NCBI RefSeq assembly: GCF_010993705.1
Contig: NZ_WOFO01000002.1
Span: forward strand, 372,001-436,000
From: Cyclobacterium sp. SYSU L10401
GTDB lineage: Bacteria > Bacteroidota > Bacteroidia > Cytophagales > Cyclobacteriaceae
Direction of reading: 5' to 3'
Length of the DNA: 64,000 nucleotides
Program-made: the position numbers and the translations under genes
Shown here: piece after piece, positions 39,013 to 49,526 of the stretch
Numbering within the stretch: the stretch's first letter is position 1
Layout of the letters: each line of letters begins with the position of its first letter
Notes under the pieces: generated by a model
Database searches by the model: none
The model's input: the letters and a program-made list of their open reading frames with translations, nothing else
Told to the model about the DNA's origin: nothing

Positions 39013-40206
39013 CTAGATTGCCTGATTGTCTTCGGGCAAATAAAAGCTGAAACATGAACCTTCGCCAAATATGCTCTGCGCCTGAATGTTTCCCCCGTGC
39101 AACGCTACGATTCGTTTGCAAATAGAAAGTCCTAGCCCGGTACTTTTCTCAGAGCCGGTCGGTAAGGTACTGGTTTTTTGAAAAGCAGAGAAAAGTTTGT
39201 CCATGTCTTCTTCGCGAATACCCTGGCCTTGATCAAAAACGCGGAAGTATAGCTGACCTTCCTCCAATTCGACCACCAATCGCACCGTTGTATCCCTATG
39301 CGAATACTTAATTGCATTGCTTAGCAAATTATCCAGAACCTGTTCGACCCGTTGGGGGTCGAAGGTCCACGAATCCGGACCATCGAATTGCAATTCAAGC
39401 AGAATGTCTTTCTTCTCCGCAGACCGCCGGTTCAACCGTATCACCTTGTCAAGAAATCCTTTTAAAGGCACTACTTTTTTCTCAAGAACAAGCTGCCCCG
39501 TCTCGATTGCAGAAACATCAAGCAGATCATCAATCAATCGCAGTGATTTCTCAGCTAGCTCATCTATAAGTTTAAGAAACTCTTTCCTTGTTGCGGTATC
39601 AGTCGAATCTTCGGCAATCACATCATGGCACATCTTGATGGTTCCAAGGGGTCCTCTGAGATCATGAGCCACCATACCAATCATATGGTCCTTCTCCTTG
39701 TTGAGCTTAGTCAGTTCAATGGTGCGTGCTTTGACCCGCTTCTCGAGATCCTTGTTTGCTTCCTGCAATTGGTTCACAAGCTCCTTATTACGAACAATTA
39801 AATTGTGTCGCTCAAAGGCTTCGCGAACGATTGTATCAAGCTCAAGGGGATCCCAGGGCTTGGAAATATATCGAAAGATATTCCCCTCATTTATGGCTTC
39901 AATTACTGACTGGATATCGGCATATCCAGTCAACAAAAGGCGAATGGCCTCCGGATAGTCATTTTTTACTTCATTAAAAAAAGCTGAACCGTTCATACCC
40001 GGCATCCGCTGGTCGGAAATAATGACCTGAATTGGATGTGCTTTCATCAATTCGAGTCCTTCCTTGGCACTGTGGGCGATATGAACCTGGTAATTTCTGC
40101 GAAATTGCCGTCTCAATGAACTGAGTATCGAAGGTTCATCGTCAATGATAAGTAAGTTGTCGTCCTTGTCCCTATTTTTATCGATTTCAGTGCTATTTTC
40201 ATTCAT
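39013..40206 (-). CDS. Response regulator-histidine kinase hybrid, partner of the LOV kinase
   Basis: A 397-aa protein with an N-terminal receiver (DD at 22-23, phosphoacceptor D65 in ISDQRMPG, T92, K115 in ISKPW). A coiled-coil linker at about 135-175 is followed by a HisKA domain with H180 in MVAHDLRGPLG. An ATPase domain follows (NLLSNAIKYS, FDQGQGI, GLGLSICKRI). The receiver-first order suggests it receives phosphate from the LOV kinase and then acts as a second kinase; there is no DNA-binding output. ATG at 40204-40206 is 4 bp beyond the LOV-kinase stop, so they are one operon. The final recipient of phosphate is not encoded nearby. Confidence 0.92.
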   Translation of the reverse strand: MNENSTEIDKNRDKDDNLLIIDDEPSILSSLRRQFRRNYQVHIAHSAKEGLELMKAHPIQVIISDQRMPGMNGSAFFNEVKNDYPEAIRLLLTGYADIQSVIEAINEGNIFRYISKPWDPLELDTIVREAFERHNLIVRNKELVNQLQEANKDLEKRVKARTIELTKLNKEKDHMIGMVAHDLRGPLGTIKMCHDVIAEDSTDTATRKEFLKLIDELAEKSLRLIDDLLDVSAIETGQLVLEKKVVPLKGFLDKVIRLNRRSAEKKDILLELQFDGPDSWTFDPQRVEQVLDNLLSNAIKYSHRDTTVRLVVELEEGQLYFRVFDQGQGIREEDMDKLFSAFQKTSTLPTGSEKSTGLGLSICKRIVALHGGNIQAQSIFGEGSCFSFYLPEDNQAI

Positions 40207-45083: not shown

Positions 45084-45196
45084 TCCTATTTTAATTAACC
45101 AAAAGTCGAAAAAACCAATGGTGAATATACCCCAAAAAATAGAACGAATCAAACGAAGACACTTTTCCCGGAGCGAAGCGTTGAGTTGAAATTTAC

Positions 45197-45230
45197 GGAA
45201 TTCAAAAGCCTTACCGTCCTTCAGCCCGAT
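45197..45230 (+). repeat. 34-bp dispersed repeat, copy 1
   Basis: The segment starting GGAATTCAAAAGCC and ending CAGCCCGAT recurs at 49493-49526 with only two mismatches. Both copies are intergenic. It is part of the 265-bp gap between the ATPase and ParD genes, which otherwise shows nothing clear. Confidence 0.6.
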
Positions 45231-45348
45231 TGCATGCAATGCTCACAAATACCGGCTAGTTTGCATGCCTTCCGACGAACCTATATTTTTCGGCTTCCTT
45301 GGGATTACACCAAAAAGGCGATAATTTTACAGCATAATTGCAGCAGAT

Positions 45349-45618
45349 ATGGGTAGAAAAACAATCGATTTTGGAGAGACCTTAGATCGGTATATTGATT
45401 TGGCCGTAAAGCAGGGTGGGTATAAAACCGAACCTGAATACCTACGGTATTTGGTTCGCAAAGATGAGGAGCACAACAGGGAGTTTTTGATTACCAAAGC
45501 GGCCATTCAGGAAGGGCTCGAGAGTGGTGTCCGTTCTAATATCAGGACTGCAGAAGAGATCGTGAAATTTGCCAAAAAAAGAACGCTGGGAAAAACCGAT
45601 GTAAAACAGCATGGCTAA
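45349..45618 (+). CDS. ParD-like antitoxin
   Basis: An 89-aa antitoxin. MGRKTIDFGETLDRYIDLAV is the ribbon and first helix of a ParD-like RHH domain. TEPEYLRYLVRKDEEHNRE and the C-terminal IQEGLESGVRSNIRTAEEIV are the typical toxin-binding helices. The ParE gene should follow, and its ATG does overlap the last codons of this gene (8 bp, 45611-45618), but ParE is destroyed after 17 residues. The antitoxin itself looks intact. Confidence 0.88.
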   Translation: MGRKTIDFGETLDRYIDLAVKQGGYKTEPEYLRYLVRKDEEHNREFLITKAAIQEGLESGVRSNIRTAEEIVKFAKKRTLGKTDVKQHG

Positions 45619-45706
45619 TTACGTTTTGCCTGTCAAGGCAGACGAAGATATGGACCGTATTGATACCAAATTGAATTTTCATCCAAATCCTGCCTGCCAA
45701 TTATAG
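45611..45706 (+). pseudogene. N-terminal stub of ParE toxin
   Basis: Seventeen codons read MANYVLPVKADEDMDRI, the standard ParE N-terminus in this family. The frame then leaves the family (DTKLNFHPNPACQ) and stops at 45704-45706. The lost C-terminus is found just beyond in inverted orientation. Confidence 0.85.
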
Positions 45707-45755
45707 CCATGATTTCTACCGCATTGTTTTCAATTCTGAAATAGATGCTATCAGC
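45675..45755 (-). pseudogene. C-terminal part of ParE toxin, inverted
   Basis: On the minus strand, 27 codons read ADSIYFRIENNAVEIMAIIG followed by RQDLDEN, the C-terminal strands of ParE. It faces the N-terminal stub and is bounded on its other side by the palindromic repeat at 45756. About 50 middle residues are missing. An inversion plus deletion of one original gene explains the arrangement. Confidence 0.75.
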
Positions 45756-46019
45756 TCCAAAACCATTGTGTTCACAAAAAATACGACCCCGCTGGGGTCT
45801 TGGGTTATTCCTATCGCTTCGTGCTATAAACATGTGACCTCTCCGAGGTCTTCGCTTATCAACCCCTTACCATCCAACGCTACCAAGCATTGCCCAAGTA
45901 AAATCTGTTGGGTAACGTCCATCCACAATGCCCATTCACTACCCGATCCCAGAGGGATCATAGGTTTATAGCAATACGTACATTAATTCCACGGCACGAC
46001 CCCAATCGGGTCGAATTCT
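45756..46019. repeat. Palindrome-array repeat, copy A
   Basis: About 264 bp, colinear with copy B at 47032-47297. Four palindromes occur in order: GACCCC-gct-GGGGTC (45785-45799), GACCTC-tcc-GAGGTC (45836-45850), GATCCC-aga-GGGATC (45945-45959), CGACCC-n5-GGGTCG (45997-46013). GCTATAAAC before the second and GTTTATAGC after the third are reverse complements, so those two units point in opposite directions. It contains no coding frame of its own. It looks like a REP/BIME-like or MITE-like element. Confidence 0.8.
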
Positions 46020-46095
46020 CCTCCGTTCTACCTTTCCCAAAAATGATGGGCATTCAACAATAAAATTGGATCGCTTCAATAAATCTATCCTTTTC

Positions 46096-46129
46096 GGCTT
46101 TGGCGAGACCTTAGACCGGTACATTGATT
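46096..46129 (+). pseudogene. Fragment of a second ParD gene
   Basis: Thirty-four bases encoding GFGETLDRYID match the start of the intact ParD gene (45367-45400) at 29 of 34 positions. There is no start codon and the frame breaks right after. It lies between repeat copy A and the MntA gene. Confidence 0.65.
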
Positions 46130-46174
46130 GCAGTACCTGTGAAGGAGGTCGTAGGTAATATTTTAAATTTCACC

Positions 46175-46182
46175 TATCTTTG
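46175..46182 (+). promoter_or_regulatory. TAnnTTTG -7 box 4 bp before the MntA start codon
   Basis: TATCTTTG ends 4 bp before the ATG at 46187. With normal spacing, transcription would begin at or next to the A of the start codon, so the MntA/HepT mRNA would be leaderless or nearly so. The -33 box is not clear. Confidence 0.45.
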
Positions 46183-46186
46183 AAAT

Positions 46187-46495
46187 ATGACTGAATTGAT
46201 TCAAAATAAACTAGATGAAATAATTGCAGCGTGTAAGCAACATCACGTTGAGGCTATTTCTGTATTTGGATCAGCTGCAAAAAATACCATACATGAAGAG
46301 AGCGATATAGACCTGCTGGTTGAATTTTCCGATGATATTGATGTCTTGGAATATGCCGACAACTACTTTTCTTTGTTAGATCAGCTTCAAGAAATTCTTA
46401 GTAGAAAAGTAGATCTTGTGTCCAGCAAATCACTTAAGAACCCCGTACTAAAAGAACAGGTTCTTAAGTCAAAAGTGAAATTGTATGCAGCCTAA
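46187..46495 (+). CDS. mntA: MNT-domain nucleotidyltransferase, MntA-type antitoxin
   Basis: A 102-aa minimal nucleotidyltransferase. The GS-x10-DxD catalytic pattern is complete: G28, S29, then D40 and D42 in ESDIDLLVEF. In characterised MntA/HepT pairs this enzyme transfers AMP units onto a tyrosine of HepT and so inactivates it. The gene overlaps the HepT gene by 11 bp, the standard order. It has a possible leaderless promoter just upstream. Confidence 0.9.
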   Translation: MTELIQNKLDEIIAACKQHHVEAISVFGSAAKNTIHEESDIDLLVEFSDDIDVLEYADNYFSLLDQLQEILSRKVDLVSSKSLKNPVLKEQVLKSKVKLYAA

Positions 46496-46823
46496 ACTAC
46501 TCAAATACATGCTAGATATTGAAAGCGTTATTGAGGAGATTGAATCTATTAAGCAAAAAACCCAAAACGACTTCCGAAATTTTTCTGATGATATCATTTT
46601 GCAGCGGGCAGTTGAGCGGGATTTAGAGATCATCGGAGAAGCGACAAGGAAAATGATGGAGATCAACCCAGCCCTCCAAATTACCGCTTCTAAAAACATC
46701 ATCGGATTAAGAAACATTATTTCGCACGCTTATGACTCGATTGAACCTGAGATGTTGTGGGCAATAATTCAAAAGAACATTCCTGTTTTAGCTGATGAAA
46801 TTCGAAAAATAAAAGATAAATAA
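46485..46823 (+). CDS. hepT: HEPN-domain RNase toxin, HepT (DUF86)
   Basis: A 112-aa all-helical HEPN protein of the DUF86 family. The catalytic motif R-x4-H-x-Y is present as R76 (RNIIS), H81 and Y83 (HAY). Y83 is the residue AMPylated by MntA partners in studied systems. The N-terminal helices (KYMLDIESVIEEIESIKQK) and the ERDLEIIGEATRKM block are typical. It appears intact and should be an RNase toxin held inactive by the upstream nucleotidyltransferase. Confidence 0.9.
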   Translation: MQPKLLKYMLDIESVIEEIESIKQKTQNDFRNFSDDIILQRAVERDLEIIGEATRKMMEINPALQITASKNIIGLRNIISHAYDSIEPEMLWAIIQKNIPVLADEIRKIKDK

Positions 46824-47031
46824 TCACTGGTTTTCTTTTCAGACCAAATCAACTTTAACCGTATCATGGAGAATGATCCAATGCCCCACCTGGGTGTAGA
46901 ATCCACTACATCCAACTATCTCTTACCTCCTTTGCACTCGTAAACTGTTTTAAGCCATTTGCAATGGCCTAAGATTTAACCAAAAAGCAAACAAAATTCC
47001 GAACACTTTTTGGCCGAAATTTGAAGGAGGT

Positions 47032-47297
47032 TCCAAAACCATTGTGATCCCGAAAAATACGACCCCGATGGGGTCGTGAGTTTCTCCTATCGCATCCAGG
47101 CTATAAACATGCGACCTCTCCGAGGTCTTACCTTGTCCAATATTCATCCTGCCAAACGCTACAAGCATTGCCAAAGCCAAATCTTTTGAGGAACGTCCAT
47201 CCACAATGCCCATTCACTACCCGATCCCAAAGGGATCATAGGTTTATAGCAATACGTACATCCATTCCACGGCACGACCCTAACAGGGTAGAATTCT
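47032..47297. repeat. Palindrome-array repeat, copy B
   Basis: About 266 bp, colinear with copy A. Palindromes are GACCCC-gat-GGGGTC (47061-47075), GACCTC-tcc-GAGGTC (47113-47127), GATCCC-aaa-GGGATC (47223-47237) and CGACCC-n5-GGGTAG (47275-47291, one mismatch in the arms). Loop bases differ between copies while nearly all arm bases are kept. Its right end lies inside the 3' half of a ParD-like gene on the minus strand. Confidence 0.8.
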
Positions 47298-47440
47298 TCT
47301 CCAATCTGCCTTTGTTGTTCACGTGCTTGTCGGATTAAATCGTTGACGAGCTCACTTTTGCTGGAATACTCTTCCCTATCGACCTGGGCTTTGAGCCAAT
47401 CGTCGTTTGGTTTGGTTAAAGAAATACGCTGTCTTGCCAT
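47159..47440 (-). CDS. ParD-like antitoxin with its C-terminus replaced by repeat B
   Basis: Residues 1-48 read as a standard ParD-family RHH antitoxin: MARQRISLTKPNDDWLKAQ, then EEYSSKSELVNDLIRQARE and QQRQIGEEF. From there the frame runs straight into the palindromic repeat (FYPVRVVPWNGCTYCYKP, SGSEWALWMDVPQK) and ends after 93 codons. The normal C-terminal toxin-binding helices (about 30 residues) are absent, and no ParE gene follows. DNA binding could survive; toxin binding should not. Call it a broken or chimeric antitoxin. Confidence 0.7.
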   Translation of the reverse strand: MARQRISLTKPNDDWLKAQVDREEYSSKSELVNDLIRQAREQQRQIGEEFYPVRVVPWNGCTYCYKPMIPLGSGSEWALWMDVPQKIWLWQCL

Positions 47441-49448: not shown

Positions 49449-49470
49449 TCCCTCCGCCGCGGCGGAGGGA
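49449..49470. repeat. 22-bp perfect palindrome, GC-rich
   Basis: TCCCTCCGCCG followed by its exact reverse complement CGGCGGAGGGA. There is no spacer, so as RNA it would lose a few centre pairs to the loop. It resembles REP-type palindromes scattered between genes. Confidence 0.6.
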
Positions 49471-49492: not shown

Positions 49493-49526
49493 GGAATTCC
49501 AAAGCCTTGCCGTCCTTCAGCCCGAT
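49493..49526 (+). repeat. 34-bp dispersed repeat, copy 2
   Basis: Same sequence as 45197-45230 except C for A at position 8 and G for A at position 17. It lies 22 bp after the GC-rich palindrome. Confidence 0.6.

Follow-up and report, generated by a model that had tools for sequence, protein, structure and literature searches.

Two composite elements built from short palindromes lie 1.28 kb apart as direct repeats in the genome of Cyclobacterium sp. SYSU L10401, and the question is what kind of repeat they are and which enzyme they belong to. The stretch of DNA analysed (the window) comprises 64,000 nucleotides. As an earlier note on this DNA had described, the same ordered set of four palindromes was present twice; the copies measured 264 bp (A) and 266 bp (B), not 265 bp, and were 85% identical over 264/266 bp. 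The parts of the two copies are as follows.

45756..46019, plus strand: composite element, copy A (264 bp)
45785..45799, unstranded: outer palindrome P1 of A, GACCCC-GCT-GGGGTC
45824..45833, plus strand: foot of A, CTATAAACAT, 2 nt ahead of the inner hairpin
45836..45850, unstranded: inner hairpin P2 of A, GACCTC-TCC-GAGGTC
45945..45959, unstranded: inner hairpin P3 of A, GATCCC-AGA-GGGATC
45962..45971, minus strand: inverted foot of A, AGGTTTATAG
45997..46013, unstranded: second outer palindrome of A, CGACCC-CAATC-GGGTCG
47032..47297, plus strand: composite element, copy B (266 bp)
47059..47077 (47061-47075 within), unstranded: outer palindrome P1 of B, ACGACCCC-GAT-GGGGTCGT
47101..47110, plus strand: foot of B, CTATAAACAT
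47113..47127, unstranded: inner hairpin P2 of B
47223..47237, unstranded: inner hairpin P3 of B, GATCCC-AAA-GGGATC
47240..47249, minus strand: inverted foot of B
47275..47291, unstranded: second outer palindrome of B, with one unpaired base (CGACCC/GGGTAG)

In both copies the left half consists of GACCCC/GGGGTC, 23-24 bp, the foot CTATAAACAT, 2 bp and the hairpin GACCTC/GAGGTC, and the right half begins about 95 bp after P2 with GATCCC/GGGATC, followed by 2 bp, the inverted foot, about 25 bp and the outer palindrome. The opposite orientation of the two feet, previously described as tails of palindromes 2 and 3, was confirmed, and the single broken base in the last palindrome of B was real. When A was compared with B, 47/48 positions were identical in the arms, 21/21 in the two feet and 154/195 in the remainder, the difference between arms and remainder (1/48 vs 41/195 positions changed) giving a Fisher p of 0.001. 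Since arms and feet were far better kept than the remainder, the palindrome match between A and B is not a matter of chance. The earlier claim that arms had stayed paired while loops changed held for the arms, but the P2 loop is the same in both copies. Likewise, the claim that structure and not sequence is selected was only half right, because no part differed less between A and B than the foot, a conserved sequence, while the arms and thus the structure were held as well. A genome-wide count (5.9 Mb) gave 12 occurrences of GAYCYCNNNGRGRTC, of which 6 fell inside A and B, against 2 for its reversed control. Folding of the single-strand DNA gave modest support for hairpins (6 folds, z -2.0 to -3.9), and the best fold of copy B omitted part of P2 and the last palindrome.

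The unit of this repeat consists of the foot CTATAAACAT, 2 nt and a 15-bp hairpin, preceded some 24 bp ahead of the foot by a CGACCCC/GGGGTCG palindrome. In relatives, as read from 11 loci of which five (L234, L250, L251, L271 and L099) fit only partly, the hairpin GATCCC was followed after 2 bp by the inverted foot and after a further 25 bp or so by CGACCCC/GGGGTCG; about 25 bp later came the foot, 2 bp and the hairpin GACCTC, and after about 49 bp the order repeated. A and B correspond to one register of the relatives' alternating array. Among the matches listed, a GGRTCG end was found within 45 bp before the foot at 115/188 sites, 114 of them at 19-27 bp, compared with 5/143 control windows placed 1.5 kb off.

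Compensatory changes, which the earlier note had named as a check, were sought at sites picked by the foot and the 5' arm with the 3' arm left free. Among the matches listed there were 109 distinct 27-mers, of which 61 had six pairs, 24 had five and 24 had four or fewer. At arm position 5 of these units C-G was found 63 times and T-A 34 times, against 3 C-A, 3 T-G and 6 other mispairs; at position 3 the corresponding numbers were 79 and 12, against 4, 5 and 9. The 3' arm therefore covaried at sites that had been found without it. Fisher tests on the two-by-two tables gave p = 3e-20 (position 5) and 9e-9 (position 3), or 3e-21 and 2e-7 with one unit per record (102 units), values that are indicative only because the records are related.

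The full element was found in 2 copies in the 5.9-Mb genome (22 contigs, 99.99% complete), and the strict foot pattern likewise occurred at 2 sites. The earlier note had counted the existence of only two copies as part of what would speak against its reading, and a whole-genome search did return two full copies only. The foot pattern was detected in 23/195 genomes searched (the source genome is counted in both numbers, and the 23 carriers were selected for holding the pattern), whereas the reversed control was found in 0/195; the 264-bp query matched in 14/195. The highest number of strict-pattern copies per genome was 39 (G107), followed by 30 and 22. A scan of named genomes for the foot and 5' arm returned at least 118 stretches, many of them metagenome bins, with at least 105 from Bacteroidota, at least 5 from Acidobacteriota and at least 8 from other or unplaced sources. 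In Mongoliibacter ruber, a member of the Cyclobacteriaceae, 30 feet (up to 2 mismatches) were arrayed between two unrelated genes, away from the Y1 gene. No clean single-unit insertion with both flanks kept was found in comparisons that included L042 and the Mongoliibacter array: neither L042 (compared with G031 and others) nor the large Mongoliibacter array (compared with G032 and others) was accepted as a case with an empty site, since these comparisons showed copy-number differences or one conserved flank only.

Y1_Tnp genes were present in 149/195 genomes, so their mere presence is uninformative and the occurrence of any Y1 gene was rejected as evidence of linkage. A Y1 gene lay within 600 bp of a unit in 13/23 carriers. 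It was intact in 11 of these (G011, G029, G031, G032, G083, G087, G095, G106, G107, G132 and G189, with G083 and G087 linked by the loose pattern only), broken in G005 and truncated in G094, and in the other 10/23 carriers, the source genome among them, no unit-linked Y1 gene was found. From 107 Y1 matches, 71 loci were examined (some overlap), yielding 48 reading frames with the motif; 42 of these end in HH/HY and represent 39 distinct proteins. The tree of these 39 intact proteins from carriers, which excludes broken or truncated genes (e.g. L259 and L278) and class-2 genes, contained one clade of 12 with support of 98/98. All members of this clade were linked to units by the loose pattern (12/12) and 10/12 by the strict one, compared with 2 and 0, respectively, of the 27 proteins outside it; the linkage labels of L099, L260, L226 and L234 are loose foot matches. 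L201 is probably the same as, or near-identical to, L248, and L105 lies in G107. When loci from Flavobacterium, Lacihabitans and Parvibacillus were added, the clade grew to 15 (support 95/96); as L132, L134 and L137 had been fetched by the foot, only their position in the tree is new evidence. Genomes represented in the clade contributed one or two genes each to it.

The catalytic Tyr, Gln, HH and both HUH histidines were invariant in 14/14 aligned rows, giving the signature Y---Q--HH, by which alone membership of subclass 1.2 was assigned. The middle residue of the HUH motif was I or V in 13/14 rows (DH[IV]H) and C in L015. A profile of the clade matched eight solved transposase sequences, among them ISHp608 (E 1.8e-11) and, as the best, 2xm3/2xma (E 3e-14), which we take to be ISDra2 TnpA. 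The NCBIfam IS200/IS605 model passed its cut-off in 5/5 proteins tested, while the REP_Tyr_transpos model gave 19.8-30.1 bits in five proteins tested against a cut-off of 80, so that they do not qualify as class 2.

From these sequence comparisons we consider it probable that A and B are orphans, BIME-like composites that belong to a REP-type family of Bacteroidota, and that the cognate of this family is one clade of subclass 1.2 Y1 HUH enzymes. The REP/BIME-type interpretation given to the elements at first sight is supported by footed palindromes that alternate in orientation, are both dispersed and arrayed, carry compensatory arm changes and adjoin Y1 HUH genes in relatives. If TnpAREP (in the available portion of PMC8266576) and IS608 are taken as models, the enzyme would bind to the unit's hairpin when the DNA is single-stranded, the foot would act as a guide that selects the cleavage site, strands would be cut and rejoined through the tyrosine, and units could be spread and amplified in trans. 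Inverted units are joined through the CGACCCC/GGGGTCG palindromes, which lie some 24 bp away from each foot. Recognition, cleavage and mobilization of the units by the clade enzyme are thus what the related systems lead us to infer.

The family resembles REP/BIME with TnpAREP (RAYT, class 2) in several respects: a palindromic unit of 20-40 bp whose short hairpin is preceded on its 5' side by a conserved foot, alternating orientation in inverted pairs and arrays, a linked Y1 HUH gene, own palindromes for each enzyme type, and orphans in some genomes. It is nevertheless not a canonical REP. The foot is CTATAAACAT instead of GTAG/GTGG, an extra central palindrome lies between inverted feet, and the enzyme signature is Y---Q--HH in place of Y---NP. 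Copy number also differs, with 2 in the source genome and at most 39 (G107) in the genomes counted, not hundreds; more than 100 copies per genome are usual for canonical REPs according to the available part of PMC2817692. Compared with IS200/IS605 (subclass 1.1), the enzyme is related, with catalytic Tyr and Gln, and the hairpin likewise has a 5' guide, but the one or two clade genes per genome form no IS-like series that we saw, and hairpin units occur also where the gene is absent and can form long arrays. RAYT subclass 2.6, listed with 'atypical secondary structures' in Bacteroidetes, shares non-GTAG palindromes and the phylum; its enzyme, however, is of the class YIH[QN]NP, and its repeats may be another family, one copy of which possibly lies at 46879-46971. 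That ~90-bp repeat contains the palindromes GGGTGTAG/CTACACCC and GCCATT/AATGGC, and pieces 71-82% similar occur at many places in congeners, one of them near a class-2 (NHLH) Y1 gene in G010; it is possibly the repeat of a subclass-2.6 enzyme. Its identification as an integron attC, suggested by spacing, was dropped after alignment showed the palindromes and the class-2 Y1 gene near one copy.

The earlier note had proposed looking for an IS200-like transposase in the same genome. Two Y1 genes of subclass 1.2 (L015 and L016) were found, but neither belongs to the linked clade, and as cognates of A and B they were rejected because they lie outside the clade and carry other palindromes. For the same reasons A and B appear to be orphaned in the source genome. 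The palindrome of gene L016, CAACCCCNNNNGGGGTTG, is itself dispersed: six places together hold 14 sites with no more than 1 mismatch (5 exact), and the control gave 0. At L016:1340-2400 both flanks hold the palindrome sets GAAGCC/GGCTTC, ACCCCGGG/CCCGGGGT and CAACCC/GGGTTG, and the CAACCC kind is dispersed elsewhere. A search for a remnant of the cognate enzyme in the 64-kb window gave only chance-level matches (best tblastn E = 0.011). With no clade enzyme among the Y1 genes found in the genome, A and B would be fossils and their family should be immobile here, unless an enzyme arriving from outside moves them. REPs without their gene occur elsewhere, and in E. coli strains a toxin-antitoxin operon has taken the place of the REPtron, as described in the available portion of PMC6006769.

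The site itself bears on how the two copies arose. The following features lie around and between them.

45644..45757, minus strand: parE remnant, C-terminal part, ending at the start of copy A (from congener comparison)
46187..46495, plus strand: MNT-type nucleotidyltransferase gene, between A and B
46485..46823, plus strand: HEPN (HepT-like) gene, between A and B
46879..46971, plus strand: degenerate member of another palindromic repeat family of the genus, unrelated to that of A and B
47304..47440, minus strand: parD, N-terminal part, cut at the end of copy B (from congeners and a weak ParD match)

Congeners G003, G004 and G006 have a parD frame that stays open throughout, and the minus strand of G005 and G006 carries continuous parE-parD DNA here, in G005 with stops. 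In the window, about 300 bp of parDE are missing and in their place lie A, MNT-HEPN, the degenerate second repeat and B, the element ends matching the break points to ~10 bp; a simple IS200-type insertion would not cause such a loss. These data are compatible with a single insertion and subsequent duplication and loss, and also with two insertions accompanied by rearrangement. It is quite possible, although we lean slightly away from it, that A and B go back to one ancient insertion that was tandem-duplicated together with MNT-HEPN, a history compatible with the REP reading and silent on movement in this lineage. The direct orientation and 85% identity of the copies agree with it, as do the limitation of the genome to two copies and the position of MNT-HEPN in congener G006 (97% identical), where it adjoins parE on its left without A or B. 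The DNA left of A (the parE remnant) is, however, unlike that left of B (46824-47031), so a plain tandem duplication is insufficient.

An alternative that dispenses with mobility is that the units are regulatory hairpins of the host or operon, such as terminators or mRNA stabilisers, which merely stand beside the enzyme gene and are not its substrates. For 7/12 clade members the nearest unit (loose pattern) starts 34-75 bp past the gene end and none of the nearest listed units lies upstream, a placement where 3' hairpins are common. We regard this explanation as unlikely, since the foot tracks one enzyme clade while sister genes have other palindromes and other feet, and since arrays are dispersed away from the gene, e.g. 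in Mongoliibacter ruber. Moreover, terminators need no conserved 10-bp foot in both orientations, and among the matches listed no consistent T run was seen by eye after the units. It is decidedly unlikely that the A-B interval was a mobile cassette in which two direct REP composites brought MNT-HEPN into parDE: the interval does sit inside the split module with its ends at the break points, but the missing ~300 bp, the presence of MNT-HEPN beside parE in G006 already and the failure to find a further copy of A or B in the genome all argue against it. That A and B, though short, repeated and structured, are MITE-like remnants of a DDE transposon is highly improbable, because their ends share no terminal inverted repeat by inspection, alternating-unit arrays are unlike MITEs and the linked gene encodes a Y1 HUH enzyme.

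The REP-type reading of A and B connects their units with a group of enzymes that had been listed without such repeats. In the available portion of Quentin 2018 (PMC6006769), the signature Y---Q--HH defines TnpAY1 subclass 1.2, for which REP is tabulated as 'no', and the automatic REP predictor demanded GTAG or GTGG. The clade agrees with that subclass, as far as the same portion describes it, in signature, length near 150 aa (median ~148), low copy number and occurrence in Bacteroidota, but differs in that units adjoin its genes. A GC-rich perfect hairpin was found within 500 bp of 32/39 subclass-1.2 genes (12/12 in the clade and 20/27 outside), and none in the same range of the other seven, own L015 included. 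By the same rule 20/64 one-kb tiles of the window contained a hairpin; these tiles served as background in place of a farther-window control that had 3 whole windows (0/3). The 14 labelled genes had on average 1.14 hairpins per 500 bp upstream and 4.29 downstream (shuffles 0.03 and 0.04, farther away 0.44), and for the 25 other genes the values were 1.36 and 1.80 (shuffles 0.07 and 0.09, farther away 0.31).

Feet of sister genes differed by eye, being CTACAGATAT in L099, CTACCGATAT in L098 and CTAACGATAG in L247. The excess of hairpins beside these genes (32/39 vs 20/64 tiles) suggests that a GTAG foot, used as a search key, hides other REP systems. We are inclined, with some reserve, to see subclass 1.2 as a further REP-forming lineage in which each branch may have its own multi-palindrome array and foot (CTATAAACAT, CTACAGATAT, CTACCGATAT, CTAACGATAG and others) changing with the enzyme, and in which one branch with its array may occupy a slot in type I restriction operons and be carried between families. 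Among the matches listed, titles and abstract openings held no link between subclass 1.2 and repeats and none between RAYT and type I restriction operons, and prior mention is possible. A subclass listed without REP now has a concrete candidate partner in the form of a conserved foot and hairpin, and its sister clades with different feet would offer a natural experiment on how such enzymes choose their site.

The gene and array were located between hsdR and hsdM at six loci (G106, G107, G095, G029, G011 and, in a Flavobacterium bin, L134), and in Parvibacillus (L137) between hsdM and hsdS; Pfam identified the hsd genes of G106, L134 and L137, and DNA similarity to G106 those of the others. Seven operons without gene and array were inspected. 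In G112 the matched hsdR and hsdM parts lay about 20 bp apart, in G075, G053, G155 and G117 a different reading frame occupied the slot, and in G003 and G105 it held a regulator-like frame (by eye). At L336, L337, L338, L339, L340 and L341 the hsdR-hsdM gap has the character of an accessory slot, with reading frames that differ between genomes. In G031, G032, G083, G087, G132, G189 and Lacihabitans the gene was sited elsewhere or, by eye, no hsd gene was seen in the fetched flank. Residence in restriction operons offers a reason for the persistence and travel of such genes.

Several other features were noted in the 64-kb window, in which Rfam at gathering scores gave no match and ARAGORN no tRNA. 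An isolated palindrome at 39343-39363, TTCGACCC-GTTGG-GGGTCGAA, resembles the outer palindrome of the element and has no CTATAAA within 2 kb. A perfect palindrome, TCCCTCCGCCGCGGCGGAGGGA, at 49449-49470 is common, at least partly, to G004 and G008. The ~44-bp stretch at 45192-45235 has counterparts in G003 and G006 and, around window position 49493, another in the same genome. At 45349-45618 the plus strand carries a second antitoxin gene of the parD type, with an NCBIfam match under the cut-off and no evident toxin partner, and a partial copy of its start is present at 46094-46129.
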